Source: Argopecten irradians (taxonomy: Eukaryota; Mollusca; Bivalvia; Pectinida; Pectinidae). Taken from it: DNA of 64,000 nucleotides. The stretch covers positions 47,667,086 through 47,731,085 of the forward strand of contig NC_091135.1 in assembly GCF_041381155.1 (NCBI RefSeq), in the 5' to 3' direction. The position numbers and the translations under genes were made by a program. This document shows, one piece after another, positions 32,399 through 63,345 of this stretch. The notes beneath the pieces were generated by a model. The model searched no databases. It had not been told where the DNA came from and saw nothing but the letters and a program-made list of their open reading frames with translations. The first letter of the stretch is position 1, and every line of letters begins with the position of its first letter.

Positions 32399-35095
32399 TT
32401 ACGAGGTATCCGAATGTTTGGTTTGACAAATCTCTTTGTGTCCCTGGCTCCATGCCTTACGCTGACAGTCTACAGTACAGTACCAAGCCTTTTTACAGTT
32501 GCCGCACCCTCTGTATGCCTCGTCGTTAGTCTTTTTGTGACAGTTCGTGCAGACATAGGCGTCGTCCCCTTCATGCACACAGCGTGGACAGTGACACCAG
32601 AAGTTGAAGGACTTGTAAAGCCACGCCCTCCTAAGCTTCCGGGGCATGGACGTGTCAATGTAAGTCGTGTATAACTCCTCCCCCTTTGTGATGTCTCTTT
32701 TGGCGCGAACTATCACGCCACCGCGGTCATTGACGTAGCCGTCACATACCTCGACGTTGTTCATGCATGAGTGATTCAGACATGCGTGAAGAGGGAAAAT
32801 ACCACAGAAGTCCGCGGTAGGAACTTTGGCCTCGAGAGGCTTTAGAAGAGCCAGGGCTCTCATATCTTGTGCATACAACTTGGACAGACTGTTAAGGAAT
32901 TGGTGGTGCGGCGTCACTGGAAAGGAAAAGCTTTGGAGGTTACATGACGCCTGGAAATATCGTCCCGTGAACTCAGCTTCCGAAATCTCGTACTTCATGC
33001 CATCGCCACAGTCGCTGAAGATATCACGGTACAGTTGTAGGATCGTCGACATTTTAGATGCAACATCACCAGTACCGAATGCGATAAATCTGAAATGATA
33101 ACAAATTAATGTTTTGTTACTTTCCAATTATTTAATAAATCGGTTTTAGAAGACATCCTTTAGCCTAAATCATATTAACAATGACTCGTTGAATATATCT
33201 GTGATAGCAATCGAACCCGTGTTTGGACCAATCTGTGGGGCTTTCAAAAGGTACGCACTGAATTTGGAAGTCATCGTAAAATATATTTTGTAATAACTAC
33301 AATAGCCTTAAGACTGCTACTGCTAAACACGTATTAGACAACCATAACTTACTTCCGGAAGGGAGCCTTTGCCCTTGCCCAATGCTCCAGAGCTGGTTCT
33401 GTACACCCGTCCTTCTTCATCAGACGTTTGGCCGCTATCACAATCTGTGCCCACATCCTAGCCAGGATAACTGGACTGAAGGAAGCCAGCCACAGATTCA
33501 CTTTCTCACCATTCTCGTTGTAGCCATAACCATAGTTATCTGCAAGTTCGTATAGGGTTTTAGCGGCCGCACACCTAGAAGGACAGATCAGCTGATGGTA
33601 TTCGTCCCACGCACGCTCTTTGCACGTGTCCGTACAGAACTTAACAATGTCACATTTGTCGCACATTACAGGTGTTACGTCAGGCCATTGGCTATCGATC
33701 AGGTCCTTAACGCCACTGTCGAATGTGTCCAGTTTGTCTCCGAAGTATCCGCGCGCGGTCAACAGTGACGTGGAGCAATAGTCACAAGCGGGCACCATCT
33801 TGTCTACCTCCTTCGACAGCACTCTGCCGAATACCGCGGGAGAGTCCTCAAATATGATCTCACCCTCCGAGATGTCACGCTTAGCGTATATACCACGGCC
33901 GTATCCCGAAAAGTCCACAGTTATGGGGAAGTCTGTGGTCAGTGGGCCGTATATACGACTGGTTCGAACCTTTTGGAAGATTATAGCAGCCTCTTGGTCT
34001 TTTTTACCGGAAAGAGTATAAGCCTTCCTCAACCAGAACTCGGCCGCTATTGGGTAATTTATCTGACCCAGTACTTTACCTGTGAAAACAAAATTTGATT
34101 AAATGTGATACTAAAAGTACATGTATGAAAAAGAAAATCTTACTCTACACTAGCGTTCAGTCTTCGGCACCAAAGCACTATGCACAAGATCCATATGTTA
34201 ACACAATACCATCTAGGATGCTTGTGAACGCAAAACATCACTTATTCTGTTCCTTTCTCGCGAATACAACATATAAAATTAACGAACTAAACTAAATCCC
34301 AAATTTCATGAATGCTAAACTATACTAACCTCCAAGTTTCCATGAATCAGCCGTCCGCTCTCCCTTAGGGATGACCCATAAGTCTTGAATGGCGCCAATC
34401 AGGTCTTCGTTCAAGAAACGCACTTCTGCCCTCAGACGTCGCAGGATCCTATTGGTAGGTTCCAGTTCTACAGCGAGAGTGAAGAACTGCAGAGCCTCGG
34501 GAAACTTTCCAGCCATCATCGCTTTGTGTCCCTCTACAGCTATCCTACCAGCTTTCTCCGATCTCAAGTTATCCGGAGGAGGAGCGCGAATATCTTTTTC
34601 CATATCGTACTTGTGTTCCAGGGATTCGTATTCCCTCTTCAGCAGAATGTCGTCGCCGGGATAGTAGTCCTGACCACAGAAGTTTACGGCGTCGTAGCCC
34701 TGCTCGTCCGTCTCGCCACCCATCTTCTCGTAGTCCTCTAGTATCACTTGCTGGAGTTTCTTCAGATCCTCAGTTATGACAGCATGTTTAGAATCCGCAT
34801 CTAGACCGGCCTTATAAAAATGATAGGCATCCTCATATTTGGCGAGTTTGGTGGACGCCCTCCCCCCAGTGATGGCACCCTCAATGTTCGTCGGGTCAAG
34901 GTCGAGTGCCTTCTTGACGTCGTCTACCACTTTGTTGTATTTGGCCTGTTGGAGGTAACATTTGGCCCGGTTTACGTAATGGTAAGGACAGTCCGGCTCG
35001 TCCTCGAGAAGGTTGGTGTAGAGCTGGATTGCCGTGTCGTAATTTCCCATCTCATAGTCCTTTAGGGCTGCCGTGTTTAAGTCTAAAACCTTCAT
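32399..35095 (-). CDS. TPR-SET-MYND protein of the SMYD family, with extra C-terminal MYND finger
   Basis: Three exons read on the minus strand: 35095-34330, 34079-33353 and 33089-32399, with AG/GT borders and matching phases, give about 727 residues. TPR-like helices lie at about 3-115, with further TPR-like sequence near 195-245. The SET domain starts near 313 (GYGRGIYAKRDISEGE) and is split by a MYND-type zinc cluster (CDYC to CDKCDIVKFC to CKERAWDEYHQLIC, about 354-421). The SET core follows with NHSC near 603 and GEELYTTYID near 634. The post-SET cysteines are CHCPRC. A second MYND finger (CTNC to CGNCKKAWYC to CQRKAWSQGHKEIC) ends the protein. SMYD proteins are lysine methyltransferases of histone and non-histone targets; SMYD4 is the TPR-bearing member. 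The second C-terminal MYND is unusual. Start chosen at the first in-frame ATG (35095). Confidence 0.92.
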
Positions 35096-35153
35096 CGTGG
35101 ACACGTCCGGTGGCCGTGAGATAGGTGGGGCTCTTGTTCACGTGCGTTTCTGA
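35096..35153 (-). other. 5' UTR part of the SMYD-family gene with splice acceptor
   Basis: On the minus strand CTATTTTCAG|AAACGCACG stands about 58 bp before the ATG, suggesting that a non-coding first exon lies further upstream (right of 35160). I could not identify that exon. Confidence 0.4.
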
Positions 35154-39715: not shown

Positions 39716-41748
39716 TTAAATGAGTGTTTGCTTAATCATAGATAAAAACTTTTGAAAAATAAATCTGTTCTATTTTGTAATACACTGGTGTCTGTTTAAT
39801 AATATTATACTTGAAATCAACTAAAAATCATGCACACACCAGATTGTTCCTGAACGTCCTTATGTATATCTTATGATATTATAATGGATCTTTATTACTA
39901 ATACTTTAACATCTATAAATAACAGTCAAGACTATATATAGCTATTACAACAAAAATATGATGAGATCATAACTAATGTTCACTGGTCTTGCACATTTTT
40001 AGTGACAAGATGTCAGACTGCATCATCATATATTTGTTCAACATTAGGTTTACTTTGTAGCTAAGTTAAGGTCCCATTTATAAACCAACAAAGTATGGAT
40101 CTATTTCTAGGATTTTATAAAGTGCCAATGTTGACTTTGTAACATCAGAATAACCAAAAGTAAAATCCTCGTTTAATACCCAGATATTCAGATCTTTGGC
40201 AATACCATTAAGGGGCCTTAAGTTGATCTAAAAGTTAACAATGAATGTTACCTGTTGGAGACTCCATCCATCATACAATTGTTGTGTATTTGAATTTTGA
40301 ATATCAAGCAGATGCTTCTATTTTTAGAAATGTAGAGTCAATATTGCACAATAAGTTAACAATACCCTGACATTGAGAACTTTAGAGATGTGATGCAATG
40401 TCACCATTCTCAGATAGTACAAATATATCAGTACCAAATAATGTCATCTACTCTCTTTCAAACCAAATAATGTCATCTACTCTCTTTCAAACAAATTCTG
40501 TATTAAGCATAAAAATTAAGAACTTTTGATTCTGTCCACATTGAATGATTCCAATTCAGTATACCTATAGGATAATAATATTACTGAACTCACACAGCAC
40601 TGAAGGTGTGCTTTGATACATATATATGATATGCTCCTTTATTCCAATGTTCTCAATTGATTCTATGATTCCGTTCTTAGAAACAAGACAATATTACTGT
40701 ATCATGATTAAGTATTAAGTTAAAAACTGCAGAGATTGTACATTTTATGGCACTTTTTCTTACTACATTAATAACTGAAGTATAAATCTGTAAAATGCTC
40801 TTCCATGTTTCTCTTGTAATCATAACACATATATCCTTGGAACTGAATACAAAATTTAAATACAATATGATGTATAATGATAAAACAAATCAATGAGAGT
40901 GGTGCCCATGTAACTATACATGCATCACAGTGAACAACATATCATCACTATCAATGATCATAGTTAGATAGACTGTAATAAACATCACATCCTTATAGTT
41001 AACAATAGATATTTAACAACTTATATTATACATGTATGTATACAAACATATATAAATGGATAACAGGCTAAGCCTATTTAAATATTCTTTTCCAATAAAT
41101 ACTTGACAAGTCTCACACACGAAAATCAATTACTCTGTCTGGTAGTGTTTGTTTTAAATCTACACTATTGATTTTTGTTTTGACAATCCATCACTTATGA
41201 TAATTATGCATCACATAAAAATAATTTCTGTCGGTTTTTCCTTTTATATATAACTCCATCCGATATACACTAATTAGACAGCGTGCCCATTAAAACCACA
41301 ACAGCAGTAACAGTATGTTGTTCTCATCAATCCACATGTAGCATTTACACTGATTCATTCTTTGATCCACTTATGTTGTAATATCAACAAGCATGTCGCA
41401 GATGGTTGATAGTTCTGAACTCTTTATACCTGGAGATGAACCATAAAACAGGGTGGAAGGCAGGCAGTGAACTCTTCACATTCAAACCAGGTAGCTGTTA
41501 TAGTTATCTCCCCTTCACATCAAGTCATCAAAACCCCAAACACTGCACAATTGTCCGAATTAACTATTTTGCTTCAACAGCTTTTCCATTTAATTTTTGA
41601 ACATGTTGGCTGTTCCAGTTAACTAGCTCACACCAAGTCTCAGAAGCTCCACAAATGATTGGCTGTTCCAGAATCTTGCTCATTTCCAGTCATGAATCAC
41701 AGAAACAAAATTCCCTAACAAGCGTCAGCTGTTACATTTGAAACATCC

Positions 41749-44700
41749 TTACATCCACAATCTCAGAAGTCCTATACATAGTGTTGCTGTACCAGCCACC
41801 GCTCCTATTAATGCAATGTTCTTGATTTAGTCAAAAAGGAATTTAATTATGCAGAAACCATTTACATGTATTAGTAAAACTTGCATCTTATTTTGTTAAA
41901 CTTGCATCTTAGTTTAATTTTTTCAACTTGAACATGCTGACTTAAAACTTTTTAAAATGTAGTAGCTAGTCTTGCCCTGACTTCATGCTAACATTAAAAT
42001 GGAAGTTTCTACAAGGTTCAACTACTTCAGTATATTACTATTTTGTATTTTGCACGAAATCAAAACTGAAATTAAGGTTAAGTATTGGATATGTAATTTG
42101 ATACTAATTTTTTCTAATAAAATTGTGGCAAGAACCGACCTGCTGCGTATTTGAAGACGTCATTACGGTATGTTTCTATCTTGGTGTGCAAAGCAGCTGT
42201 ATCTGTGACAATCTTATTGTTTAGGACTTGAAGCTCTTTACGGTTTTCCGCATGCTAAAATTTAACAAATTTAAACATAAGCAGGAACTTACACACAGCA
42301 ATTAGCAAGAAAGACCAAATATTGTTTTCTTCTAAGTATGCATTGCCATGATTTTGCTACGACTAACACCATAAAACACTCAATCTGAAAAGTCCTGACT
42401 CATAAATTTTACATTTAATTTTTCTGATAAAGGCAATCTTAAAAATAAAGGTATGTATAAAATGTACTTTGGGTGACCAAACATAAGATTTGTTCAAGGT
42501 TTGTACACATGTGGATATGAACAAAGCCTTATCTACAATACAGTTTCTTCACTTCTCATTAATTCCTTCTTAATTTCTGTGTACAAATTTGACTCAAACT
42601 GTTGTAGTACAGTAAGACAATGTACACAAACTGTATGCAGACACAACAGCTGAACTTTTAGACAGTAATTGCTGAGCTTTCATGTTATCCTGGTTAAATA
42701 GTACAATACATCCTAATCATGGAGATTAATATATAAACTTAAAAACTCACCGCTTCAGTGCTACGACTCTTTTCCAGATTTATGTCGAGAACAACATTAT
42801 TTTTTAGTTTCCCCATCTCATCTTGCAGAGTCTGCTGGAATTGTTTGATCTGCATGGTTTGTTTCTGTAAGTACAAGTCATTATATCACCTTTCCTTATA
42901 ATACTGCAATGTTGTTGGTGTTAAATCTGTGCTTTAAATTCTACTTCCAACTATAGTAATGAGGGCGAGATGATGGCCAGTCAACGTGCACACAACAGTT
43001 GGTTTGATATTTTGGTGGTAGAAACAATACAATTTTTAAAACTTACTTCTACAATTGGGTAACAATTGTAGAAAACAATTGTAGAAATTCTGTATCTTAA
43101 AGCAAGGGATAAACATGAATTTTCATTTTCCTGCTATAAAGAGGGGAGAACATCCAGCTCATCCTTACATCCTGAATTCATACAAAGACTGCGGCATCTA
43201 TTTCTCCCATACTTCACAGGGATATCTTGTAGTTGTTAGGGAAGGCTAATAGAATCTTACATGGGCCTGTCAGGTGGACAGGGATATCTCAACCCAAGTG
43301 AAAAAAAATTTGGCTGGTCAACCCGAGGCTTGCCAAGGGTTGACGGACAAAATCTTTCACGAGGGTTGAGATATCCCTGTCCACCTGACAGACCAATGTT
43401 TGATTCCTTTTCTCCCATACTTTAACGAAACATGAAACTACAGTTATAGAGAAACATTTCCAAAGCCACACCATCGTAGGAACGTCACTATGTGCCAAGT
43501 TTTGTGACATCATCGACAATAGTCACCGCATGTAATGATGACGTCACATCATAGTCTAGCGCATGTGAGCTGTCTTTTCCCTATCCTGATAAAAGACAGA
43601 GTTATCATTTCCCTAGCAACCACGGGATAATCCTGACAAGGATAGAAAAAAACGTTATCTTACACAGGGAGGTGAAATACAGCTCACACACATCAGACAA
43701 TTATGTCATGTCATCAATGCATGCGACATAACTGCAGCATGCATTATTAATGAAATCATCAATTTCAACTCATACCATGTTTGCCATAATTAGCGCTCCT
43801 TTAGCTATAAGTGTCCTTTCTCTCTTCTGGAGAAGGAATTGAAGTTATGAAATCCCCCATTCCATGGATTAAGTTATGAAATCCCCCATCCCATGGATTA
43901 AGTTATGAAATCCCCCATCCCATGGATTAAGTTATGAAATCCCCATCCCATGGATTAAGTTATGAAATCCCCCATCCCATGGATTAAGTTATGAAATCCC
44001 CCATCCCATGGATTAAGTTATGAAATCCCCCATCCCATGGATTAAGTTATGAAATCCCCCATCCCATGGATTAAGTTATGGAATCCCCTATCCCATGGAT
44101 TAAGTTATGAAATCCCCCATCCCATAGATGAAGTTATGAAATCCCCCTATCCCATGGATTAAGTTATGAAATCCCCCATCCCATGGATTAAGTTATGAAA
44201 TCCCCTATCCCATGGATTAAGTTATGAAATCCCCCATCCCATGGATTAAGTTATGAAATCCCCCATCCCATGGATTAAGTTATGAAATCCCCTATCCCAT
44301 GGATTAAGTTATGAAATCCCCCATCCCATGGATCAAGTTATGAAATCCCCTATCCCATGGATTAAGTTATGAAATCCCCCATCCCATGGATTAAGTTATT
44401 GAAATCCCCCATCCCATGGATTAAGTTATGAAATCCCCCATCCCATGGATTAAGTTATGAAATCCCCCATCCCATGGATTAAGTTATGAAATCCCCCATC
44501 CCATGGATTAAGTTATGGAAATCCCCCATCCCATGGATTAAGTTATGAAATCCCCCCATCCCATGGATTAAGTTATGAAATCCCCCATCCCATGGATTAA
44601 GTTATGAAATCCCCCATCCCATGGATTAAGTTATGAAATCCCCCATCCCATGGATTAAGTTATGAAATCCCCCATCCCATGGATTAAGTTATGAAATCCC

Positions 44701-47700
44701 CCATCCCATGGATTAAGTTATGAAATCCCCCATCCCATGGATTAAGTTATGAAATCCCCCATCCCATGGATTAAGTTATGAAATCCCCCATCCCATGGAT
44801 TAAGTTATGAAATCCCCCATCCCATGGATTAAGTTATGAAATCCCCCATCCCATAGATTAAGTTATGAAATCCCCCATCCCATGATTCAAGTTATGAAAT
44901 CCCCCATCCCATGGATTAAGTTATGAAATCCCCCATCCCATGGATTAAGTTATGAAATCCCCCATCCCATGGATTAAGTTATGAAATCCCCCATCCCATG
45001 GATCAAGTTATGAAATCCCCCATCCCATGGATTAAGTTATGAAATCCCCCATCCCATGGATTAAGTTATGAAATCCCCCATCCCATGGATTAAGTTATGA
45101 AATCCCCCATCCCATAGATTAAGTTATGAAATCCCCCATCCCATAGATTAAGTTATGAAATCCCCCATCCCATGGATTAAGTTATGAAATCCCCCATCCC
45201 ATGGATTAAGTTATGAAATCCCCCATCCCATGGATTAAGTTATGAAATCCCCCATCCCATGGATTAAGTTATGAAATCCCCATCATCCCATGGATTAAGT
45301 TATGAAATCCCCCATCCATGGATTAAGTTATGAAATCCCCCATCCCATGGATTAAGTTATGAAATCCCCATCCCATGGATTAAGTTATGAAATCCCCATC
45401 CCATGGATTAAGTTATGAAATCCCCATCCCATGGATTAAGTTATTGAAATCCCCCATCCCATGGATTAAGTTATGAAATCCCCCATCCCATGGATTAAGT
45501 TATGAAATCCCCCATCCCATGGATTAAGTTATGAAATCCCCCATCCCATGGATTAAGTTATGAAATCCCCCATCCCCATGGATTAAGTTTGAAATCCCCC
45601 ATCCCCATGGATTAAGTTATGAAATCCCCCATCCATGGATTAAGTTTTGAAATCCCCCATCCCATTGGATTAAGTTATGAAATCCCACATCCCATGGATT
45701 AAGTTATGAAATCCCCCATCCCATAAGATTAAGTTATGAAATCCCCATTCCCATGGATTAAAGTTATGAAATTCCCCTATCCCATGGATTAAGTTATGAA
45801 ATCCCCCATCCCATGGATTAAGTTATGAAATCCCCCCATCCCATGGATTAAGTTATGAAATCCCCCATTCCATAGATTAAGTTATGAAATCCCCCATCCC
45901 ATGGATTAAGTTATGAAATCCCCATCCCATGGATTAAGTTATGCGAAATCCCCATCCCATGGATTAAGTTATGAAATCCCCCATCCCATGGATTAAGTTA
46001 TGAAATCCCCCATCCCATGGATTAAGTTATGAAATCCCTATCCATGGATTAAGTTATGAAATCCCCCCCCCATGCAATTAAGTTATGAAATCCCCATATC
46101 CCATGGATTAAGTTATGAAATCCCCCATCCCATGGATTAAGTTATGAAATCCCCTATCCATGGATTAAGTTATGGGAAATCCCCCATCCCCATGGATTAA
46201 GTTATGAAATCCCCCATCCCATGGATTAAGTTATGAAATCCCCCATCCCATGGATTAAGTTATGAAATCCCCCATCCCATAGATGAAGTTATGAAATCCC
46301 CATTCCATGTTATGACAATTAAGATTAAGTTTATGAAATCCCCATCCCATGTGATTAAGTTATGAAATCCCCCATCCCATGGATTAAGTTATGAAATCCC
46401 CCATCCCATGGATTATGTTATGGAATCCCCCATCCCATGGATTAAGTTATGAAATCCCCCATCCATGGATTAAGTTATGAAATCCCCATCCCATGGATTA
46501 TGTTTTGAATCCCCCCATCCAATAGATTAAGTTATATGAAATGGAATCCCATCCCATGGATTAAGTTTATGAAATCCCCATCCCCATGGATTAAGTTATG
46601 AATCCCCATATCCCATGATTAAGTTCATGAAAATCCCCCATCCTTCACCATGGATTAAGTTATGAAATCCCCCATCCCATATGATTAAGTTATGAATCCA
46701 TCCCCATTCCCATGGATTAAGTTATGGAAATCCCCCATCCCATGGGATTAAGTTATGAAATCCCCTATCCCATGGATTAAGTTATGGAAATTCCCCATCC
46801 CATGGATTAAGTTATGAAATCCCCCCATCCCATTGATTTTGAGTTTTATGAAATCCCCCATCCCATGTTGAGATTAAGTTATGAAATCCCCCATCCCATG
46901 ATTTAAGTTTGTTGAAATTTTTTGGATCACTCCCTGAAATATATCATCCCATATTACAGTGGATTAAGTTAGTTATCACCCCCTCCCATTGAGGTTATGG
47001 TCCCCCATTATCCCATGTATGATCCCACCTGACTTAACAGTGTACAGTTACCTGTTGAGGTTTGGAAACCTGGTAAGTGACCATGTATGATCACCTGACT
47101 TTACATGTTGATACCTGATTTGAGGTTTGGTGACCATGTATGATCACCTGACTTTACAGTTACCTGTTGAGGTTGGTGACATGTATGATCACCTGACTTT
47201 TACAGTCTTACCTGTTGAGGTTTGGTGACCATGTATGATACACCTGAGGTTTTGACAGTGATTACCTTTGTTGAGGTTTGGTGACCATGAATGATCACCT
47301 GACTTTACAGTTACCTGTTGAGGTTTGGTGACCATGAATGATCACCTGACTTTACAGTTACCTGTTGAGGTTTGGTGACCATGTATGATCACCTGACTTT
47401 ACAGTTACCTGTTGAGGTTTGGTGACCATGAATGATCACCTGACTTTACAGTTACCTGTTGAGGTTTGGTGACCATGAATGATCACCTGACTTTACAGTT
47501 ACCTGTTGAGGTTTGGTGACCATGAATGATCACCTGACTTAACAGTCTTACCTGTTGAGGTTTGGTGACCATGTATGATCACCTGACTTTACAGTTACCT
47601 GTTGAGGTTTGGTGACCATGTATGTTGATCACCTGTCATGACTTTACAGTTACCTGTTGAGGTTTGGTGACCATGTATGATCACCTGACTTTACAGTTAC

Positions 47701-50700
47701 CTGTTGAGGTTTGGTGACCATGTATGATCACCTGACTTTACAGTTACCTGTTGAGGTTTGGTGACCATGTATGATCACCTGACTTTACAGTTACCTGTTG
47801 AGGTTTGGTGACCATGTATGATCACCTGACTTTACAGTTACCTGTTGAGGTTTGGTGACCATGAATGATCACCTGACTTTACAGTTACCTGTTGAGGTTT
47901 GGTGACCATGTATGATCACCTGACTTTACAGTTACCTGTTGAGGTTTGGTGACCATGTATGATCACCTGACTTTACAGTTACCTGTTGAGGTTTGGTGAC
48001 CATGATGATCACCTGACTTTACAGTTACCTGTTGAGTTTGGTGACCATGAATGATCACCTGACTTTACAGTTACCTGTTGAGGTTTGGTGACCATGAATG
48101 ATCACCTGACTTTACAGTTACCTGTTGAGGTTTGGTGACCATGTATATGATCACCTGACTTTACAGTTACCTGTTGAGGTTTGGTGACCATGAATGATCA
48201 CCTGACTTTACAGTTACCTGTTGAGGTTTGGTGACCATGAATGATCACCTGACTTTACAGTTACCTGTTGAGGTTTGGTGACCATGTATGATCACCTGAC
48301 TTTACAGTTACCTGTTGAGGTTTGGTGACCATGTATGATCACCTGACTTTACAGTTACCTGTTGAGGTTTGGTGACCATGTATGATCACCTGACTTTACA
48401 GTTACCTGTTGAGGTTTGGTGACCATGTATGATCACCTGACTTTACAGTTACCTGTTGAGGTTTGGTGACCATGTATGATCACCTGACTTTACAGTTACC
48501 TGTTGAGGTTTGGTGACCATGTATGATCACCTGACTTACAGTTACCTGTTGAGGTTTGGTGACCATGTATGATCACCTGACTTTACAGTTACCTGTTGAG
48601 GTTTGGTGACCATGATACTGATCACCTGACTTTACAGTTACCTGTTGAGGTTTGGTGACCATGTATGATCACCTGACTTTACAGTTACCTGTTGAGGTTT
48701 GGTGACCATGTATGATCACCTGACTTTACAGTTACCTGTGAGTGACAATGTGTTCACCTTATTATGGTGAACCTGTGAGTGTATATATGATCACCTGACT
48801 TTACAGTTACCTGTTGAGGTTTGGTGACATGTATGATACACCTGACTTTACAGTTACCTGTTGAGGTTTGGTGACCATGTATGATCACCTGACTTTACAG
48901 TTACCTGTTGAGGTTTGGTGACCATGTATGATCACCTGACTTTACAGTTACCTGTTGAGTTTGGTGACCATAAATGATCACCTGACTTTACAGTTACCTG
49001 TTGAGGTTTGGTGACCATGTATGATCACCTGACTTTACAGTTACCTGTTGAGGTTTGGTGACCATGTATGATCACCTGACTTTACATTACCTGTTGAGGT
49101 TTGGTGACCATGAATGATCACCTGACTTTACAGTTACCTGTTGAGGTTTGGTGACCATGTATGATCACCTGACTTTACAGTTACCTGTTGAGGTTTGGGG
49201 ACCATGAATGATCACCTGACTTTACAGTTACCTGTTGAGGTTTGGTGACCATGAATGATCACCTGACTTTACAGTCTTACCTGTTGAGGTTTGGTGACCA
49301 TGAATGATCACCTGACTTTACAGTTACCTGTTGAGGTTTGGGGACCATGAATGATCACCTGACTTTAAAGTTACCTGTTGAGGTTTGGTGACCATGAATA
49401 ATCACCTGACTTTACAGTCTTACCTGTTGAGGTTTGGTGACCATGAATAATCACCTGACTTTACAGTTACCTGTTGAGGTTTGGTGACCATGAATAATCA
49501 CCTGACTTTACAGTTACCTGTTGAGGTTTGGTGACCATGTATGATCACCTGACTTTACAGTTACCTGTTGAGGTTTGGTGACCATGTATGATCACCTGAC
49601 TTTACAGTTACCTGTTGAGGTTTGGTGACCATGAATGATCACCTGACTTTACAGTTACCTGTTGAGGTTTGGTGACCATGAATGATCACCTGACTTTACA
49701 GTCTTACCTGTTGAGGTTTGGTGACCATGAATGATCACCTGACTTTACAGTCTTACCTGTTGAGGTTTGGTGACCATGAATGATCACCTGACTTTACAGT
49801 CTTACCTGTTGAGGTTTGGTGACCATGTTCTTTGTCTGATGTTCAATACTTGTATTAAGAACCTCCGAGAAAGCTTCTGTAATTGCTGTAGCCTGCTCCT
49901 CTGTAAAACCTATAAAGTGGTTCAAAAGAAAGCTAATTTTTTTTTTCTTATTCTAATCTAGATATGGAATTAATTCGAAAACCAAATCAACACAATCATT
50001 ATTAAAAAGATACCAGGTAGCACCATATTCATGTTGACTATCACAACAGGAAATAAAGTATTATTTTCCACGATTTGCTATGAGAATAAGAGGGTTTTGA
50101 AATCCTATTTTTAAACAACATGAGTAACGTACGGTAAACCGTCGATTTGTTCCACCATCTTATAATTGTGCTGTCATATTTTGAAGCGTTCTTTTGCGAT
50201 GTCATAATTGATGAAAGATTGGAATTATCAATGGCAAATTGTACCCATGTCATTTTTGGATCTTGTATTGCTTAACTTAATAATAGACTCACCTTGGGAT
50301 TTCAGCTTGTTTACCAATGCCAATGTATCAAAGTAAAAAATCTTGGACTGCGCATCTAAGGTAGGGTTGATGGATCTGGCCTCAGGGCTGGCACAATACC
50401 CTCTCTTATTAACACATACTGTAAGAGGAACTAGTAAGGTCAACAGTCAAAAACATATGATGGTCAGTTTGAGCCTGTCAAATTACAACTACCTGATTAA
50501 TTAAGTTGTACATTTATAAATTGACATGAGTGTATATGACACTTTACGGAGGGTAGAGCACGGTATCGGCATGAATTATTGGGAGACTGGTGAATGGGGA
50601 ATTTTATATTCCAGTCATGACATTTGGTTCAGCTTTGATTGATATTGCAGCGATAATGTGACAAACAATGAAACGCAGGCTTTCATCAGTTCGACATTCC

Positions 50701-51752
50701 CTGAAAATGCAGTCAGTAATATAGTATTTGGTCTTCAAATTTTATTTCTTATCATACCTTAGGGTAATTTCTGAACACAGGCTTATGCCTCTATATTCAG
50801 CTCCTTCTATTGCATCTCATGGGGGGGGGGGGGGGGGTTAGTCATATAGGACATTTTCATTTTTCCGACGTATGTCACGACGTGCCTCGAATGTTTTGTG
50901 CATTACCGACTTCAGGTGGTAAATTGTTCCATGGAGATACTTGTTATTCATGATGTCTTGAAACATGACTTCTGCAGTTATCATTGTCTGTATACAGAAA
51001 ACAACGTGGGGACTGCGTTTTATAGTTTGTCCCGTTATCGCTGCAATATCAATCAGAGCTAAACTAAAGGTCAAGACTGGAATTCACTAGTCTCCCAATA
51101 ACTCACACCGTTACCTTGCCCTACCCATTGTAAATGGTCATGTACTCTTTGTCAATGTATAAATGTACAACTTATTCAATAACGTAACTTTTTTAATTAT
51201 GATTTGACAGGCTGAAACGGGCCATAGAACAAACATTTGTATTCTTAAACTTTGATAGGCGCCTTCTGGAATATTCTGATATATTCTCAATAGTTAACAC
51301 TCATTTTTACATTGGTTTAGTCGTTTATGTGTGGTTATATTATATAATATTAAATTTCCCATTATTTTTTTCTGAACTACTGGCAGTATACAAACCGAGA
51401 TGCTTGAGTTACTTCCCCTTGTTTATAACAAAATTAGCCATGCATGTCAGGTATATTAGTTTATCTTATTAAATATTACCATTTCCTCTGTGATAAAGCA
51501 ATAACAGCAACAGCCAATGAAAACAGATAATACTAAGTAACACTAACATTACATGACTGTGCGGTCAGGTCTGATGCTAGTCCGGCCATTACCTGTCGTC
51601 CCCTTGGACAGTTTACGTAAATCCAGAGGATGTCGAACTGATATTTGTCTTTTTGCACAACTTCTACATACTGGAGTTGAAAACAGATCTTGAGTAAAAG
51701 TGCTAAACAATCTGTGCAAGGGCCTCGACAACAAACGATGTGATTGCAACAT
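41749..51752 (-). CDS. MCUR1/CCDC90B: MCUR1/CCDC90B family mitochondrial inner-membrane protein
   Basis: Minus-strand exons: 51752-51593, 50418-50293, 49909-49806, (probable 43826-43776), 42864-42751, 42254-42140, 41804-41749. All junction phases match (1, 1, 0, 0, 0, 1). The start MLQSHRLLSRPLHRLFSTF is a typical mitochondrial targeting sequence. Then come the family blocks KIFYFDTLALVNKLKSQGF, EEQATAITEAFSEVL and KNMVTKPQQ, the coiled coil DEMGKLKNNVVLDINLEKSR and NRKELQVLNNKI, and a C-terminal membrane helix KYAAGAVAGTATLCIGLLRLW that aligns residue for residue in length with vertebrate CCDC90B. Total is about 245 residues against about 254 in human. The family regulates the mitochondrial calcium uniporter or respiratory assembly. 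The usual exon of about 20 residues after KNMVTKPQQ (ending near KKDM..LE) is not found; that place is filled by minisatellites. The gene is 10 kb largely because of these arrays. Confidence 0.88.
43262..43395. repeat. Short foldback element in MCUR1 intron
   Basis: CCTGTCAGGTGGACAGGGAT followed by ATCTCAACCC (about 43264-43294) returns as the reverse complement at 43363-43393. An inner pair GGTCAACCC/GGGTTGAC lies between them. It is a compact hairpin of about 134 bp without coding capacity. Confidence 0.72.
43776..43826 (-). CDS. MCUR1/CCDC90B: Probable short exon of MCUR1 (51 nt)
   Basis: On the minus strand TTCCTTCTCCAG|AAGAGAG opens and AACATG|GTATGAG closes a 51-nt, phase 0-0 open stretch encoding KRERTLIAKGALIMANM. 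The position in the gene, exact phase on both sides and resemblance to the family's EKSEF..LR.ENE.L segment support use as an exon. The resemblance is weak, so it could be a chance exon. The 29-bp array starts 8 bp beyond its acceptor. Confidence 0.45.
43834..46960. repeat. 29-bp minisatellite (about 105 copies)
   Basis: Head-to-tail units read GAAATCCCCCATCCCATGG then ATTAAGTTAT. From about 43847 to 45270 copies are almost identical, with the odd CCCTATCCC or ATAGATG variant. From about 45280, and heavily after 46280, units carry many one- and two-base insertions and deletions until the pattern dissolves near 46960. The left edge GGAATTGAAGTTATGAAATC is unit-like and abuts the pyrimidine tract of the probable short MCUR1 exon. 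It lies in an MCUR1 intron. Confidence 0.96.
47030..49827 (-). repeat. 47/49-bp minisatellite built on the MCUR1 exon 3 splice donor
   Basis: About 59 tandem units occur. On the minus strand each carries CATGGTCACCAAACCTCAAC then AG|GTAA, i.e. the last 22 coding bases of exon 3 plus its donor, followed by a spacer CTGTAAAGTCAGGTGATCAT. The real exon end is the rightmost copy (exon 49909-49806). Units of 49 bp with the real donor form GTAAGACTG cluster near the exon (about 49270, 49416, 49701, 49751). The 47-bp GTAACTG form fills the rest, apart from a few near 47200 and 47545. The left end (47030-47330) is disordered. Confidence 0.95.
50458..51232. mobile_element. Foldback element with a 17-G run in its loop, MCUR1 intron 1
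   Basis: Left-arm phrases GAGCCTGTCAAATTA, TTGTACATTTATAAATTGAC, ATTATTGGGAGACT and TTGATTGATATTGCAGCGAT return as reverse complements in the right arm (to about 51232), with moderate divergence. The loop holds 17 consecutive G (50821-50837). No coding capacity. It lies between MCUR1 exons 1 and 2. Confidence 0.75.
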
Positions 51753-53689
51753 CTTTCTTCTTGAATTAGAACTCTTTAGTTTTGAAAGACACAAAAAACA
51801 CATAAAGGGAGGCATTATTATTTTGATAAAAATAATCATAGCTGAAATAATTGTCTCGACAATTTTTTCTCTCTCTAAAATACCAACTATATAAAAACGA
51901 TGTTAGTTTAGGCCTAATAACGGCAAATACAGATACAGTTGTACTTAACAAATGGCCGGGAATAGTTCAGTTCATTAGGGAGGGTCCATTATTCCAAATA
52001 AAACCAGGTTACAAAATATTACTTTATGGCATAATGGCATATTCCTGTCACCATTCTTTTAGAATCACAGTACACATAAGCTGCTTTAATTTTTGTTCTA
52101 ATGACATAAATGTACCTATTTACTTTATTTATTGTAATTTATAGCGGGTGATGTTAATTTATATGTTTACAATATATGTCTAGGCAAGCTAACCAGTCAA
52201 GCTGTTTTGTCCGTAGGTGTATTGTGTACCTGTGCTGTATTTCTCTATACTGTGGTAGTGTTTTGTGTCGTGCATTCATTTCTCGTGAGGTGTCCTAAAT
52301 GTGTGTCTGTGTTTTCTCTGTTGTGATTGGCTGCCTAGACTCGGGTAAGGGGATAAATTCGGGGTAGTTCTAGTAGACTGGGTAGTCTGATGGATTAAGT
52401 TCCTGCGTGCTGCCAGCTCCGCTACAAGGCCTATAGGTGACTATTTTATATTTGGTAATTAGGTGGGAATAAAAACCGTAATATGGAATTAGGTACGGGA
52501 ATGGGGGGCTGGGCATAATATTTGTGTGGATGTATGTGTGATGTACAATTGTATGTTGTAAATAGTTACTGTTATAGTCATAATAAACTGTTCCTTATCA
52601 TATAAACCCAGTAGTTTGTTCTTCCTCCAACCAACAGACAAGCATATTAAATAATACCCAACGAACCTGGGTTGCACTAGGGGCGCACCGGGCGTAGTTT
52701 GACATCTTTTCAACCTGGGCCCGTCTCGCTCCTGTTACATTATCCTGTATGGAGAGGTCAAAGGTCACGAATGTTTGCAGTTAAGCATGCCTCTACGGAA
52801 GCATCAGTTTCACATAGGAAAATATTTTTCAGGATAGGGAATAAGGAAATATTGTATTTCAAAATTTGGCGGCTGCCAGAAAAAATTGGCTACACAGTTC
52901 TAACAAGTCTGTGAAGGCCTAGACATAAATGAAGAGGCGGCCACCAAATAATTATTATATTGTGACAAATGTAAAACCAAATTGTTATCCTGAAAATTAC
53001 TCTCCTATGCGAGCCTAATATTCTTCTATAAATCTCAATCTGTTGCAATGTCTGTCTTTATTCTTCAAAATTTGAAAAACATTGATGAACAAATTGTTGA
53101 AATGAAATGCTGACTTTTTGTTATATACTGCAATAGGGACACAAATGTAGGACTTGACAAACTGAATAAGTTAATTGATTTTATTTCAAAGCTTTTGTCT
53201 GAAGAGAGAATATATAAATAGGCAATGGTACAAAATATACAAGAGAAGGAGAGAGAACAAGAGAGAAAGAGTGGTAAAACATAGAAGTAAAAAATCTTAC
53301 ACATGTACATACATGTCCATAGCTGTAAAGTGATAAAAATATGTAACATACACAACATTCATAGCCTGGACATGTAGTTCACCATAATCTTTAAATCTGT
53401 GAATATCAAATACGTTGTACTTTAGTCTGTTTGTTATTACCTGGTAAATATTTGCTCTTGTGAGAAACTTTGTTTAGAGCTATTGACTATTGTTTACCAA
53501 GCATTGATGAAATAATTGTCTAAAAACATGCCGTGTTAAGAAGTTCCAGTTTGAAAATCCTTTTCGGTATATACTATACAGTTAATGCACTTTTTCGCTT
53601 AGTCTGTTTAACCTGGATACATTATTAGGCTTCCCCCCCATTTTCCCCCCTAATACATGTAAATATTATACAAAAAAAAAAACCAACAA

Positions 53690-55881: not shown

Positions 55882-58800
55882 TTACGATGATTTGCAGCGG
55901 ACATCTTTGTCATACTTTTCATGGAGATGTTTTTTGTAAGCTGTCTGGTTTTTCCATAGATCTGCAGCATGTATGTTGAGTGGACTGTCAATGTTGGGCT
56001 CTGAAATATAAAGCATTGAATTATTATCAAAAAATAAAAATAACAAAATAAAATGGGTTAGTCATGTAAGTGGTCTATATCAAATGCTAGCTTCAAATTC
56101 TAATCCTAATGTCCAGTATCAAATTAGAACTCTCACTTATAAATCTTATAAATTCACAATTTTTATGTCCTATTGTCTTTATCTGCTCAGTGCAGGAGTA
56201 CCTGCAAAACAAAAATTAATACTAAGTCACTTACAAAAAAATGTCTTAAATATGGTTTTGTATCTTTTTGTTAATTTCTTTTAATGCTAGCATTAGCTAT
56301 GCTTCAACATCTGACAATTGCAAGTTTACTTTACAATACAATATTTGATAGTTGTGTACTACATATCCCAAGAACCAAATAATTCAAAGGTAGGTTTCGC
56401 CCAACCAAATTAATATTTTTTGTGAAATGTGATAAACGGAAGAAAAGATGAAAAAACATATTAAAATACCTCAATTTAATTTCTTTATGCGTTTGAGATT
56501 GAACAAATGTGTCTTGAATACAAAATTGAAGGAAATCCTTGATTTATTACGGTGTCCGTCAGACAAAATAGTATGCAAATGAAGCTGCAATGGATTGTGT
56601 TGTCGAAGTTTCGCGCATGCGCATTGTCACACACTAAAAGTAAACAAAATGCCTGAACAAAAGTGTGTGAGATAGAAAATATATATCTGAATCGGCAACA
56701 AAGTGGAGGAAATTATAATGGATTTCCACGTTGCACGTGGTGAGTTAAATTTCAACACATATGCCAGCGCACAAACAGCCGCAGACTAACTACATGTATA
56801 TTTGGTGTACGAAGCTAGCGAGCGTATGTAAGTAACATATAGTGTTTTAGATTATATGATATGTATATACAGTCCATCGCACTTCGATTTGTTGTTTTTT
56901 TTTTTTAAACAAACATGCCGTGTCAAGACTGTCACTTCTATCTGACATTTTGTTGCACGCTTCCGTTTGTTGCTGCGGCCTCGTTTTGGAAAAAAATATG
57001 TCATGTTCTATACATGTAAAGCTTGACTTCACTCTATTTTTAGAGGAGTATTTTCCTGGTCAAGCTAGGCAACTGACCACCCATATTGTTCGCTGTATGC
57101 ATTGAAAATAATCTGAAGATTATATCTATGTACATGATAAATTTCAATTTTGTAGTCTTTATATTTCATTGGGCGAAACCTACCTTTAAAGAAGCCATAA
57201 ACATATTCTCAAAGTTCTACCAGAAACCCAGTTCTTGATTAAATGCATTTTACCTCCCAAAAGACTTTGAAGTGAGAGTAGGATGGTTCGGACGTCATAT
57301 AAGGCTGACCACTTCTCCTTTAAGATGTCTAGACAAATGTTTCCATGGTGATCCACATTGGGATGGTAACAAGGGGAATCAAACTTCACTGTTGGAGCTT
57401 GGTAGGGGTAGCTGCTTGGGAACTCAAGGATAAGCTTGTAACGAAGCCCCTCGTACACCTTAATGAACAAAATGAGACAAGTACAGATACAAACTTAGTT
57501 GAATATAAATAAAAGGTCACACAAGGAATGTAAAAATCAGAAAAGATTCCTATATCGACACAGTGGTTAAGATGTCCCAACATAGTACCACAAGTGTAAA
57601 CCCTTATTTTTTCATTTTGATTTTCTAAAGCATGCAGAAACACTGAAATTAACTATTACAGAAACTTATAAGACCATTCACTAAATTGCATCTTTTGTAA
57701 CCCTTGAATATATACACTGTCCACCAAAAGTTCTGATAAAAGAATTTTTGGAGGCAGTGTAGATGAGGTATGATAACCCTGATTATCCTTTTTACAATGC
57801 ATAACTTTTAAGAAAATTCCTAATCTTTAGCACTATATGGAGGCAGAAATATATCACTGTTTTGTTGCACTGGTTTTTGAAATCTGAAGTTGAACAGTAT
57901 TATTGTGTGTACCGTTCCTGTTGCTCCATCTAATGTGGCAATCCATTTGAACAAATTGTCACCATCAGGAAATGCTGATATCCCAGGGTTATTGGAGGTC
58001 TGCAAACAGAAAATTTAATAAGACCAGTGGTTTTCCTTCTGTGTTTTTTTTTTTTATATATATACATGTATTGTTCATTTAAAGTAAGTTTTCATTTCTA
58101 TTACCCAAATTCAGCATTCTTAGAACACCTATACAGTAACACACAGAAGCAATGTACTTAGTTCAGTATACATGTCTTTTTTTTACCATGTCAAATAACT
58201 TCAATAAATTTAAACATTGAAGTTTTCATTCAACATTATTAGTGTCCAGAAGAATAATTTGTAATATAATACTCTGACACTAAATCAAAGTACAGTATTA
58301 TTTGATTCCATACTGGGACCCAACCAGTCGTCGTGAAGGAACAGTAGTCATGATTTGAGAAAAATTCAATTGTTTGCATTTCATGAAACACATTATTTTC
58401 ACATAAACAAAACAATTCCATCATGAAGTATTCCTCAGCACCTGCAGACATTCGGAAATCTGGACGCACACTAGAATATGCTAACAATCACGACTACTGT
58501 TCCGTCATGACTACTGGTTGGGCCCCAGTACACTATTCTAGAATCTAAGACAAATTTTGCATGTTTATAATTACTCCAACAATGTCAGAGGTATAGCATG
58601 ACGAGACACTTTTGATGATGAGTCTAACCTCTAACAATCAAGGCAGGATTCACACGGTGCAAAAATAGGCTCAATATAAATTCAAAATTTCAAGTTGTGT
58701 TTACACTAACCTTTCACATCCTGAAAGAATTATCCCAAATCATGTTAAAGCCAAAATACAAAACATCACTATTGCACTTTTATACTAAAGTTAGACATTT

Positions 58801-60117: not shown

Positions 60118-63100
60118 GAGTCAAGAGTCAAGAGTCAAGAAGTTTTATTTAGAGTCGCATACATGGGAACATAATAACATTAGCACTGTAGTGCTATTCT
60201 TGCGACAAACATATGTAAAATATCACAGTACAAACAGGTAAAATATATATAGACAGACAACAATTTAACTATAGCAAGCATGCAATAGATACATGATATG
60301 GAAACAGCTATCACAGTTTAGCAGAAATAAGAAAATTTAATTTAAAGGTAATAACTTAATAATTACACTTGTATATCACACAAATGTTACACAAAATAGG
60401 TTAAGACACTGAAGTGTAATGTACATAAATGCTAATATAGCAAAGTGTAAAAATTTACAGGATATACACTAACATAGTGTGAATTAAAAGTAGAATATTG
60501 AAGTCATAGGTAGAAAACAAAAGCTAAAATAAGATTTATAAAAGTAATGATCTTTGAAAAGGTTTGAAATATCACAGGTTATATGGTATAATTACAAGTA
60601 GGTAGATTCCAAAGGGGAACAACTCATCCTATATGGTGTGTACAGATGGTACAGGAGCAGATCTGTGTATCCCAGGTGTGAAGCAGTCTGCGAAACGAAC
60701 TGTAGTTTTCAGCTAGCCGACATTCATTTGGCAGACTGTTCCACACCTGAGAAGCAGCGAAACGAAAAGATCTCTTACCATAAGTGGAGGTGTTTACCCT
60801 TGGAATCTTTACCAGGTTGTCCTGTCTAAGATTATAAAAAACTTCTTTCTTCTCAACAAGATTTTGTAAAATATGAGGAGAAATATCATTTAAAATTTTA
60901 AAAACTTCAGAGGCCATATCTTTCATACGCTTAACATGTAAAAAATCAAGTTTGTGCCTCCTTAAAATATCGAAGACTGGGGAAACATAGTCATTGTCAA
61001 TAAAACGAAGTGCTCTCTCCTGGACTTTTTCCATTTTCCTAGTATTAGTCAATGTACAAAAGTGCCAGGCAAGTGGACAATAGTTAAAATTTGAAAGTAT
61101 AAAAGACTTAAAAATGGTAATTTTCCCCTTCTTTGTAAGATTATTTCCCAGTCTTTTTAAAACAGCAAGTTGTTTGGCAGCATTTCTACAGAGTCGAGAT
61201 ATGTGTGCATCAAATTTAAGAACAAAGTCAATATCTACACCTAAAAGTTTTACAGTATCTTTCACACATAATCTCAAGGCCATCGATGTTAAAAGATTTA
61301 ATAGAATTTGTTGTCTTCTTTCCAAAACATATAGCCTGGAACTTCTCTGGGTTGGCCTTCATACCATTAAAATTAAACCAGTCTATTAGAACTTTACTCT
61401 CTTTTTCTAAGCAATCTTTCAGATGTGTGAAAAAACTATCACCTATCTTAGAGAGAGTATTATCATCTGCATAATTATATAAAACACATTTGTCAACAAA
61501 GGTAAAAAATATCATTCATAAAAATATTGAGAATCAGAGGTTCCGACAATAGAACCCTGGGGGACCCCCTTCTTCACATCTGTCCATTCGCTGGTCTCTG
61601 GCCCCAGTCTGACCTGCTGCATTCTGTCACTCAGGTAGCTGCCGATGAAGTCAATAGCTGACTTACCCAGACCATAAGCTTGCAGCTTCCCGAGTAGCAG
61701 GTTATGAGGAATGCAGTCAAAAGCCTTGGACAGATCCATCAGAATAGCTCCTGCATGCTGATGGTTGTCCAAGGCCTGCCTCCAGTCCTCAAGAGCTCGC
61801 AGCAGGACAGACTGGCACCCATAACCGCTCCTGAACGCTGCTAGGAAGGGATTAAAAATAGACTTAAAATATTCACCTAATTGGTTATGAATAAGTCTTT
61901 CAAACATTTTTGACATAGAAGGTAAAATACTTACAGGCCTGAAGTTACTCTTATCCATAGGGTTGTTTTTCTTAAAAATCGGTAAGACCTGTGCTTTCTT
62001 CAGGGCATCGGGAAAATGGGAAAACTTTACACAATGGTTAAAAAGGGATGTTATAACAGGAGTAAAAGCTACTGAACCAGCTTTTAACATTTTTGAGGAG
62101 ATACCATCAAAACCTGTAGCTTTTTTCACAATCAACGAGGACAAAATGTTTTTTACATCACCCTCATATACAGGCTGAAAATTAAAAGCATTGTTTTCAT
62201 TTCCTTCACACATGGTCTTTGTAATATTAACAACACTTGGGTGGTCAGTAAAATTTGACACACCCTCCAGATCCTTACCAATATCATCTGCAACTGTAGA
62301 GAAAAAACCATTAAAAACATCACAAACTTCTCTCTGTCTGGATACAATGCTTTCATCTTCTTCTAAAATAATTTTCTGATCATTAACACATTTGTTGGAT
62401 AAAAAAGGCTTTATAGTAGGCCAAAAATCCTTAGAGGCTGGGCCTCCACCACATCGTTCCTGGAAATAGAGCCGTACAGACTGTCTACGGAGTTTAACTA
62501 CATAATTTCTTTGCTTTCTGTAGGCTTCCCAGTTAGCAGGTGTTTTCATGCGGTTGTATCTATTACGCAACATAGTTTTCTTAAAAGCAGCCCTTCTAAG
62601 ATTACTGTTTAAAAACGGAGGTCTATTTAAACGAGGTTTGCGTTCTTTAATAGGTATATGCTCATCAACTACTTCCCTCAATAATTTATCATGAGCCCAG
62701 TAGACATCCTCAGTATCATCAAACACATATGCCACATGGAAAGGTACATTAGATAAATCAGAGTTAAAAACATTCTGTTCAAAGTTTTTAAAACTACGGA
62801 ACTTACTTTTAACCCTAGGCAAGCATGGTGCTGTGCCTTTTATAACAATTCCAATAAGATTGTGGCAGTCACTAAGACCACATAAAACAGAAACTAGGAC
62901 AATTTGTTAGGATGACATCAACTAGTGAAGGGATACAATCCTTCATAAAACATGTAGCTTCTGTAATTTTATTTGTCAGGTCAAACATGTCACAGAAATC
63001 AGACAGTGTTTTACCTTTATTTTCATTTAGGCAATCAAAGTTTAAATCACCTTAAATCATAAAATTGTCATACTTTGTAGATACACGATCAATAGATAAA

Positions 63101-63345
63101 ACGGCATCGTTCATAAAATCGTTATCGTGCATAGAAGGGGGTTTGTATGTGCCAATAAAAGCCCACTTCCTCTTCTGTATGGAACACTCAATAACAATGG
63201 ATTCCACATCTCTGAGTTCGAGATCATTACGTCTACGTGAAGGGAGGTCAGCACGAACGTAGGCCACGAGTCCTCATCCGTGTGCATTTCGGTCTCTCCT
63301 AAAGCACCGATAACCTGGCACATCGAAAAACACGATTGTCAACCG
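60118..63345 (-). mobile_element. CR1/jockey-like LINE, 5'-truncated, with broken ORF2
   Basis: Minus strand, 5' end near 63345. It opens inside the endonuclease domain (YRCFRRDRNAHG, AYVRADLPS, IGTYKPPS, GDLNFDCLNE, GLSDCHNLIG). A 436-codon reverse-transcriptase frame follows (62822-61512: NFRPVSILPSMSKMFERLI, ILMDLSKAFDCIPHNLL, VKKGVPQGSIVG). The catalytic YADD lies in the next frame (61515-61228) and the C-terminal region in another (61325-60624: SNFNYCPLAWHFC, KVQERALRFI). Frame changes fall near 61535, between 61540 and 61500, and near 61265; an in-frame TGA interrupts the endonuclease near 63280 and the frame shifts near 62870. The 3' end has AATAAA followed by a short tandem (TCTTGAC)3 at 60119-60140, a tail type typical of CR1-like elements. 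It no longer encodes a working protein. Confidence 0.92.

Follow-up and report, generated by a model that had tools for sequence, protein, structure and literature searches.

How the edge of a coding exon, together with its splice donor, comes to be repeated dozens of times in the intron that follows it is the question raised by a 64,000 nt stretch of the genome of the scallop Argopecten irradians (assembly GCF_041381155.1, contig NC_091135.1, positions 47,667,086-47,731,085; this whole stretch is referred to below as the window, and all coordinates are positions within it). In a minus-strand gene for a mitochondrial protein of the CCDC90 family, the last 22 bases of one exon and the adjoining donor recur head to tail in a long minisatellite. 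The array is real, with chance excluded by a wide margin. As to its origin, the sequence makes it quite likely in our judgement that the minisatellite arose from the 3′ edge of this exon, where it remains anchored, that hairpin formation started it, that the exon-proximal donor is the one likely to be used and that the array itself probably has no selected function.

Four exons on the minus strand (50418-50293, 49909-49806, 42864-42751 and 42254-42140) give a single open frame when joined, and the resulting protein matches Pfam family PF07798 (CCDC90-like) with 100.6 bits, the gathering cut-off being 33.5; in the joined protein used for this and for the PDB matches, the outer-end residues V and G lean on intron bases. 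Taken alone, the two exon pairs score 50.2 and 59.1 bits, with 50418-50293 and 49909-49806 covering PF07798 positions 1-48 (E 3.4e-13) and the downstream pair covering positions 86-159. The joined exons also match PDB entry 6h9m (CCDC90B) in an alignment that reaches the ...MVT.QQ end of exon 49909-49806; the 35-residue peptide of this exon by itself has no PDB match. Profile, structure and open frame together bear out the proposal, made in an earlier note on this DNA, that the repeated 22 bases end a real exon. We nonetheless use the name CCDC90-family (MCUR1/CCDC90B type) for this predicted gene with reservation, because profile positions ~49-82 were not found, probably through a loss in assembly that is considered below.

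Each repeat unit consists of the last 22 exon bases followed by the donor, with 25-27 intron bases in all, and units follow one another on the minus strand to ~47030. Tandem Repeats Finder (TRF) places the array at 47077-49828 with a period of 47, 58.2 copies and 93% matches, whilst a fuzzy scan of 46900-49840 allowing up to five edits finds 57 copies, most of them 47 or 49 bases long, of which 48 carry the exact 22-mer. Units 1, 2 and 3 are the same in all 49 bases, strong donor included. The head-to-tail recurrence of 22-mer and donor had been described before with a count of ~59; the recurrence stands but the count is slightly high, and 57-58 is preferred because the odd unit 22 hides one more donor (CACAG/GTAACT, the slash marking the junction). 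Similarly, repeats do reach ~47030, as the span of 47030-49827 given for the array implies, but the far end falls in a stretch that looks misassembled, and the distal end of the array in the assembly is not trustworthy.

The copying would have run from exon to array, because the 22 bases code for part of the protein that aligns to CCDC90B (6h9m) and end at PF07798 position 48. The presence of several unrelated minisatellites in the window raises the alternative that the unit belongs to a dispersed satellite family and abuts the exon by chance. However, its first 22 bases are conserved in-frame coding sequence, and a search of both strands of the 64-kb window with up to four edits found no copy beyond the array, making this alternative extremely unlikely.

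Clues to how duplication began come from the founder-like unit at the exon edge. This segment (22 exon bases, the donor and ~27 intron bases), the left edge of which is the point where homology with the exon starts, is framed by a terminal inverted repeat that was matched or bettered in 9 of 20,000 shuffles, and two small 4-bp hairpins are possible between its ends, one of them spanning the donor (ACCTcaacAGGT). The predicted fold of the 49-base unit has three hairpins: one lies across the donor (ACCT-caac-AGGT), and the other two are GACT-gtaa-AGTC and GGTGATCA-ttca-TGGTCACC. Its stability was equalled by 1 of 500 shuffles, and a 241-nt RNA running from the exon into the array gives a fold z of -6.66, none of 200 shuffles being as stable. 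Two other arrays in the window, with units of 29 bp and 27 bp, served as controls and have no excess folding (357/500 and 214/500 shuffles as stable, against 4/500 for either form of the 47/49-base unit). A founder ending in a 9-bp inverted repeat and a unit of three hairpins together suggest duplication driven by hairpins: the first tandem duplication would most likely have arisen by strand folding during replication or repair, and growth to ~57 copies may then have proceeded by slippage or unequal exchange. Since exchange between exact 22-mers preserves both the exon end and the donor, such an array could grow or shrink without coding damage, and the coding end would be expected to survive these exchanges because the exact exon edge is kept in 48 of the 57 copies.

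The donors themselves fall into distinct classes. A donor-like sequence (CAGGTAAGA or CAGGTAACT) is present in 54 of the 57 copies. Only seven donors, those of units 1, 2, 3, 9, 12, 47 and 54, keep CAG/GTAAGA with its strong +5 G; 47 have CAG/GTAACT, lacking the +5 G, and the remaining three are other variants. The GTAACT form fits a loss of GA from GTAAGA. Counted as strings across the array stretch, CAGGTAAG occurs 7 times, CAGGTAAC 48 times and CAGGTGAT 55 times, and a second register, CAG/GTGAT, has 55 occurrences. Duplex energies with the 5′ end of U1 put GTAAGA at -11.0 and GTAACT at -8.0 kcal/mol, some 3 kcal/mol apart; the gene's other donors give -10.4, -9.1 and -7.7 kcal/mol. The earlier claim of a good U1 match in every unit is therefore too broad, holding fully for 7/57 donors, with 47/57 lacking the +5 G, whilst the position expected for the exon's donor, directly after 49806, agrees with what had been proposed. 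The strong donors are also unevenly placed, as units 1-3 are all GTAAGA but just 4 of the 54 remaining units are (hypergeometric probability 0.0012, given seven). By predicted pairing, the true donor belongs to the strongest class, donors 2 and 3 match it and most decoys are weaker yet alive.

In a transcript, the exon-proximal donor would most likely be chosen, because it closes the 104-nt exon and has retained the +5 G; the 47 GTAACT donors would act as weaker decoys. Low-level use of donors 2 and 3 is nevertheless to be expected, because these equal donor 1 in strength and lie close to it. Translation past donors 2, 3 and 4 gives MVTKPQQ-VRL-stop in each case, in agreement with the immediate stop (GTA AGA CTG TAA) that the earlier note had read for downstream donors; the same stop applies to donors beyond 4, because every such product includes unit 1. 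Leakage to donor 2 or 3 would thus add Val-Arg-Leu-stop and yield a truncated mRNA open to nonsense-mediated decay.

Could such leakage be the purpose of the array? In a scheme of regulated poison splicing, donors 2 and 3 would be used deliberately, with stop codons and decay lowering the level of protein. That units 2 and 3 do not differ from unit 1 at any of their 49 bases, strong donor included, would suit this, as would the immediacy of the stop, and excerpts of PMC4526556 report that human IFI6 uses two downstream repeat units as alternative donors. Recent local duplication explains the identity of units 1-3 equally well, however, and we consider deliberate use unlikely. Taking this idea further, the exon edge might be self-copying, with a reservoir of donors restored by exchange and a copy number that tunes poison-donor use and hence protein level; this we find distinctly unlikely but, if true, alleles differing in copy number would determine how much of a mitochondrial calcium-uptake regulator is made.

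The motif CAACAG/GTAA, found in most units, also resembles a joined acceptor and donor, as would be needed for recursive splicing, in which successive steps take out the intron and leave the mRNA as it was: joining donor 1 to the AG of any of these motifs would rebuild the same exon end. C+T makes up 9 of the 16 bases at positions -20 to -5, the same as at two of the gene's own four acceptors (13, 12, 9 and 9), whereas T alone accounts for 3/16, compared with 8, 8, 7 and 9 at those acceptors; recursive splicing is in our view very unlikely. A minisatellite that arose by hairpin-started duplication and is carried along at the exon edge probably needs no selected function.

Several points weigh against this favoured reading. 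The hairpin statistics were computed post hoc, once the unit was known, and in the commoner 47-base unit, although the 8-bp hairpin is kept, the best fold differs around the donor (4/500 RNA shuffles as stable). The GTAACT donors, at -8.0 kcal/mol, are about as strong as the donor that the gene itself uses after 42140 (CAGGTCGGT, -7.7 kcal/mol) and so are not dead. Donor choice, leakage and decay are predictions drawn from sequence, and the single-copy ancestor is one that we infer. Finally, exact-pattern scans of viral and prokaryote contigs gave no matches, and of the 20 pattern stretches that viral contigs yielded in a protein-based scan none was confirmed, these being collections unsuited to an animal gene.

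A different kind of doubt attaches to the assembly. If reads from the 47-bp array (A) and the neighbouring 29-bp array (B) had been falsely overlapped, the unique sequence between them, and with it the next conserved exon, would have been dropped. In support of this, the flanking exons match PF07798 1-48 and 86-159 with a gap between, and an exon for positions ~49-82 was found neither between them nor in the remainder of the window by ungapped or gapped search. The probes here were blocks of human CCDC90B and MCUR1. Ungapped, their best scores in the intron were 12 and 5, respectively, against shuffled-intron medians of 14 and 16; over both strands of the whole window, block scores did not exceed 25 (shuffled-intron maxima 31 and 28), whereas exons used as positive controls scored 67 and 73; and when both blocks were compared with the entire window by gapped tblastn, the best of the 15 hits had an E of 3.1. 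A CCDC90B sequence matches PF07798 14-175 unbroken, whereas the domain of the gene in the window is not continuous.

The junction of the two arrays is itself unusual, reading base by base as a mosaic of both units. The mosaic score of ~47055-46905 is 57, as against 2.7 +/- 5.4 in 60 shuffles, and for the seam core a mosaic of A and B scores 38, compared with 18 for A alone and 26.5 for B alone; controls with one unit shuffled (200 each) reached at most 34.5 and 60 random stretches at most 12.5. Errors, counted as differences from consensus per 141-145 bases, climb towards the seam on both sides, to 16 and 24 in the last two bins of A and, unevenly, to 16, 16, 21, 6, 18 and 12 in the first six of B. 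Elsewhere, bins hold 0-8 errors in A, the one with the odd unit being an exception at 30, and 0-5 in the far half of B. Most near-seam errors are insertions or deletions (indels), with 34 indels to 6 substitutions at the A end and 59 to 29 in B. The 27-bp minisatellite (7414-9163, 65 copies) is without an edge gradient and has two inner error bumps, in bins starting at 8359 and 8629.

On the other hand, tandem arrays can decay at their edges by natural processes, and indels outnumber substitutions in clean A too (59 to 30, although up to 14 of these 59 are the GA of GTAAGA units, if two are counted for each), with a slight surplus in the remainder of B (27 to 22). The sequence of 42865-49805 contains no N. 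The exon may also have been lost in evolution, as the flanking exons join in frame, or it may be too diverged for the two human probes. Even so, a false join that dropped exon-bearing sequence is the simplest reading of the seam, and we regard it as probable. The intron that had been drawn from 49805 to 42865 is then probably not one intact piece, because the expected conserved exon was not found and the seam resembles an assembly blend. A misjoin would leave the exon-anchored array real, with the count of its copies and the 6.9-kb 'intron' in error, and is compatible with an origin of the minisatellite from the exon edge; we treat copy number and intron length as provisional. Positions of the features discussed are collected in Table 1.

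Table 1. Features of the host gene and its arrays (window positions; the slash marks an exon-intron junction)
Feature	Positions	Strand	Details
Upstream coding exon	50293..50418	-	126 nt; acceptor ...CTCTTACAG, donor AAG/GTGAGT; PF07798 1-48 jointly with next exon
Coding exon bearing the repeat edge	49806..49909	-	104 nt; phase 0 end ...ATG GTC ACC AAA CCT CAA CAG
Coding part of unit (22 bases, its left end)	49806..49827	-	Unit 1 of the fuzzy scan
Founder-like unit	49779..49827	-	Ends form a 9-bp inverted repeat, ATGGTCACC / GGTGATCAT (one G-U)
Natural donor (unit 1), predicted	49796..49805	-	GTAAGACTGT; U1 duplex -11.0 kcal/mol as CAGGTAAGA; GT at 49805-49804
Minisatellite of 57-58 units (47 or 49 bp for the most part), every unit repeating the exon edge and donor	47030..49827	-	TRF, fuzzy scan
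Scrambled stretch within the 47-bp array	48735..48790	-	Small inverted repeat GTTCACC...GGTGAAC
Seam of the 47-bp and 29-bp arrays, probable misjoin	46910..47060	-	Base-level mosaic of both units
Second minisatellite, 29-bp unit, ~100 copies	43842..46909	-	Not hairpin-prone; TRF
Next recognisable coding exon	42751..42864	-	114 nt; both ends phase 0; KQTMQIKQ...STEA
Coding exon after 42751..42864	42140..42254	-	115 nt; HAENRKEL...KYAA

A long translated product of the array was also considered and rejected, as the stop-to-stop list of open reading frames of at least 70 aa in six frames has none inside 47030-49827. An Rfam search of 40000-52000 returned five matches up to E 1, none reaching its gathering score, and these are taken as chance. 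Elsewhere in the window, all on the minus strand, an exon of a ubiquitin-conjugating enzyme lies at 57186-57494 (PF00179, E 1.6e-27), open frames at 60624-63273 resemble, by eye from their translations, a reverse transcriptase of the long interspersed nuclear element (LINE) type, and the segment 33349-34098 of a series of open stretches at 32399-35137 carries a MYND zinc finger (PF01753). Going by the match at 33349-34098, the last of these is possibly a SMYD-type gene.

The locus offers a natural test of how the spliceosome chooses one donor among dozens of near-copies when the true site is the exon-proximal one, and of whether exon-anchored minisatellites can expand without harm to the protein. 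Should the misjoin be true, it would mean that an assembly can lose a conserved exon between two arrays, a point of concern for the annotation of repeat-rich animal genomes.

The closest known system appears to be human IFI6 (6-16/G1P3), the likeness being one of anatomy: in both, tandem repeat units supply multiple splice donors, and the scallop array, like that of IFI6, consists of tandem units at an exon-intron junction with unit 1 overlapping the predicted natural donor. The IFI6 repeat unit is reportedly 12 bp long and keeps the reading frame. The scallop array differs in its 47-49-bp unit, its instant stop codon, its hairpin frame and the lack of the +5 G in most copies; unit length, stop and hairpin frame mark it as a variant. 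According to the excerpts available of PMC4526556, PMC3618361 and PMC2572611, the IFI6 minisatellite at a donor site was described by Turri, Cuin and Porter (1995), and in the first of these sources the two downstream units that act as donors give rise to three mRNA species. Among PMC papers, the open literature searched, no account of the scallop array was found.

Other systems known from excerpts share single aspects of the array. CeRep25B of C. elegans is also a minisatellite tied to splicing, being enriched near alternative splicing regions, but what it is described as contributing is regulatory motifs rather than a duplicated exon edge with its donor (PMC4039745). In human segmental duplicates too, variable internal tandem repeats sit at exon-intron boundaries, and there they alter gene structure; these repeats, however, lie inside exons of recent paralogs, and the available text describes no long donor array (PMC2812944). 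In potato RNA-dependent RNA polymerase (RdRp) genes, intron gain is attributed to tandem duplication of segments that contain AGGT or cross a boundary (PMC4974935), so that here too duplication over an intron-exon boundary multiplies splice signals, whereas in the scallop it is the donor side that has been copied, ~57 times, without a demonstrated new exon or intron. Going by these excerpts, tandem duplication across a boundary is already a recognised way for introns to be gained (PMC4974935, PMC2812944).

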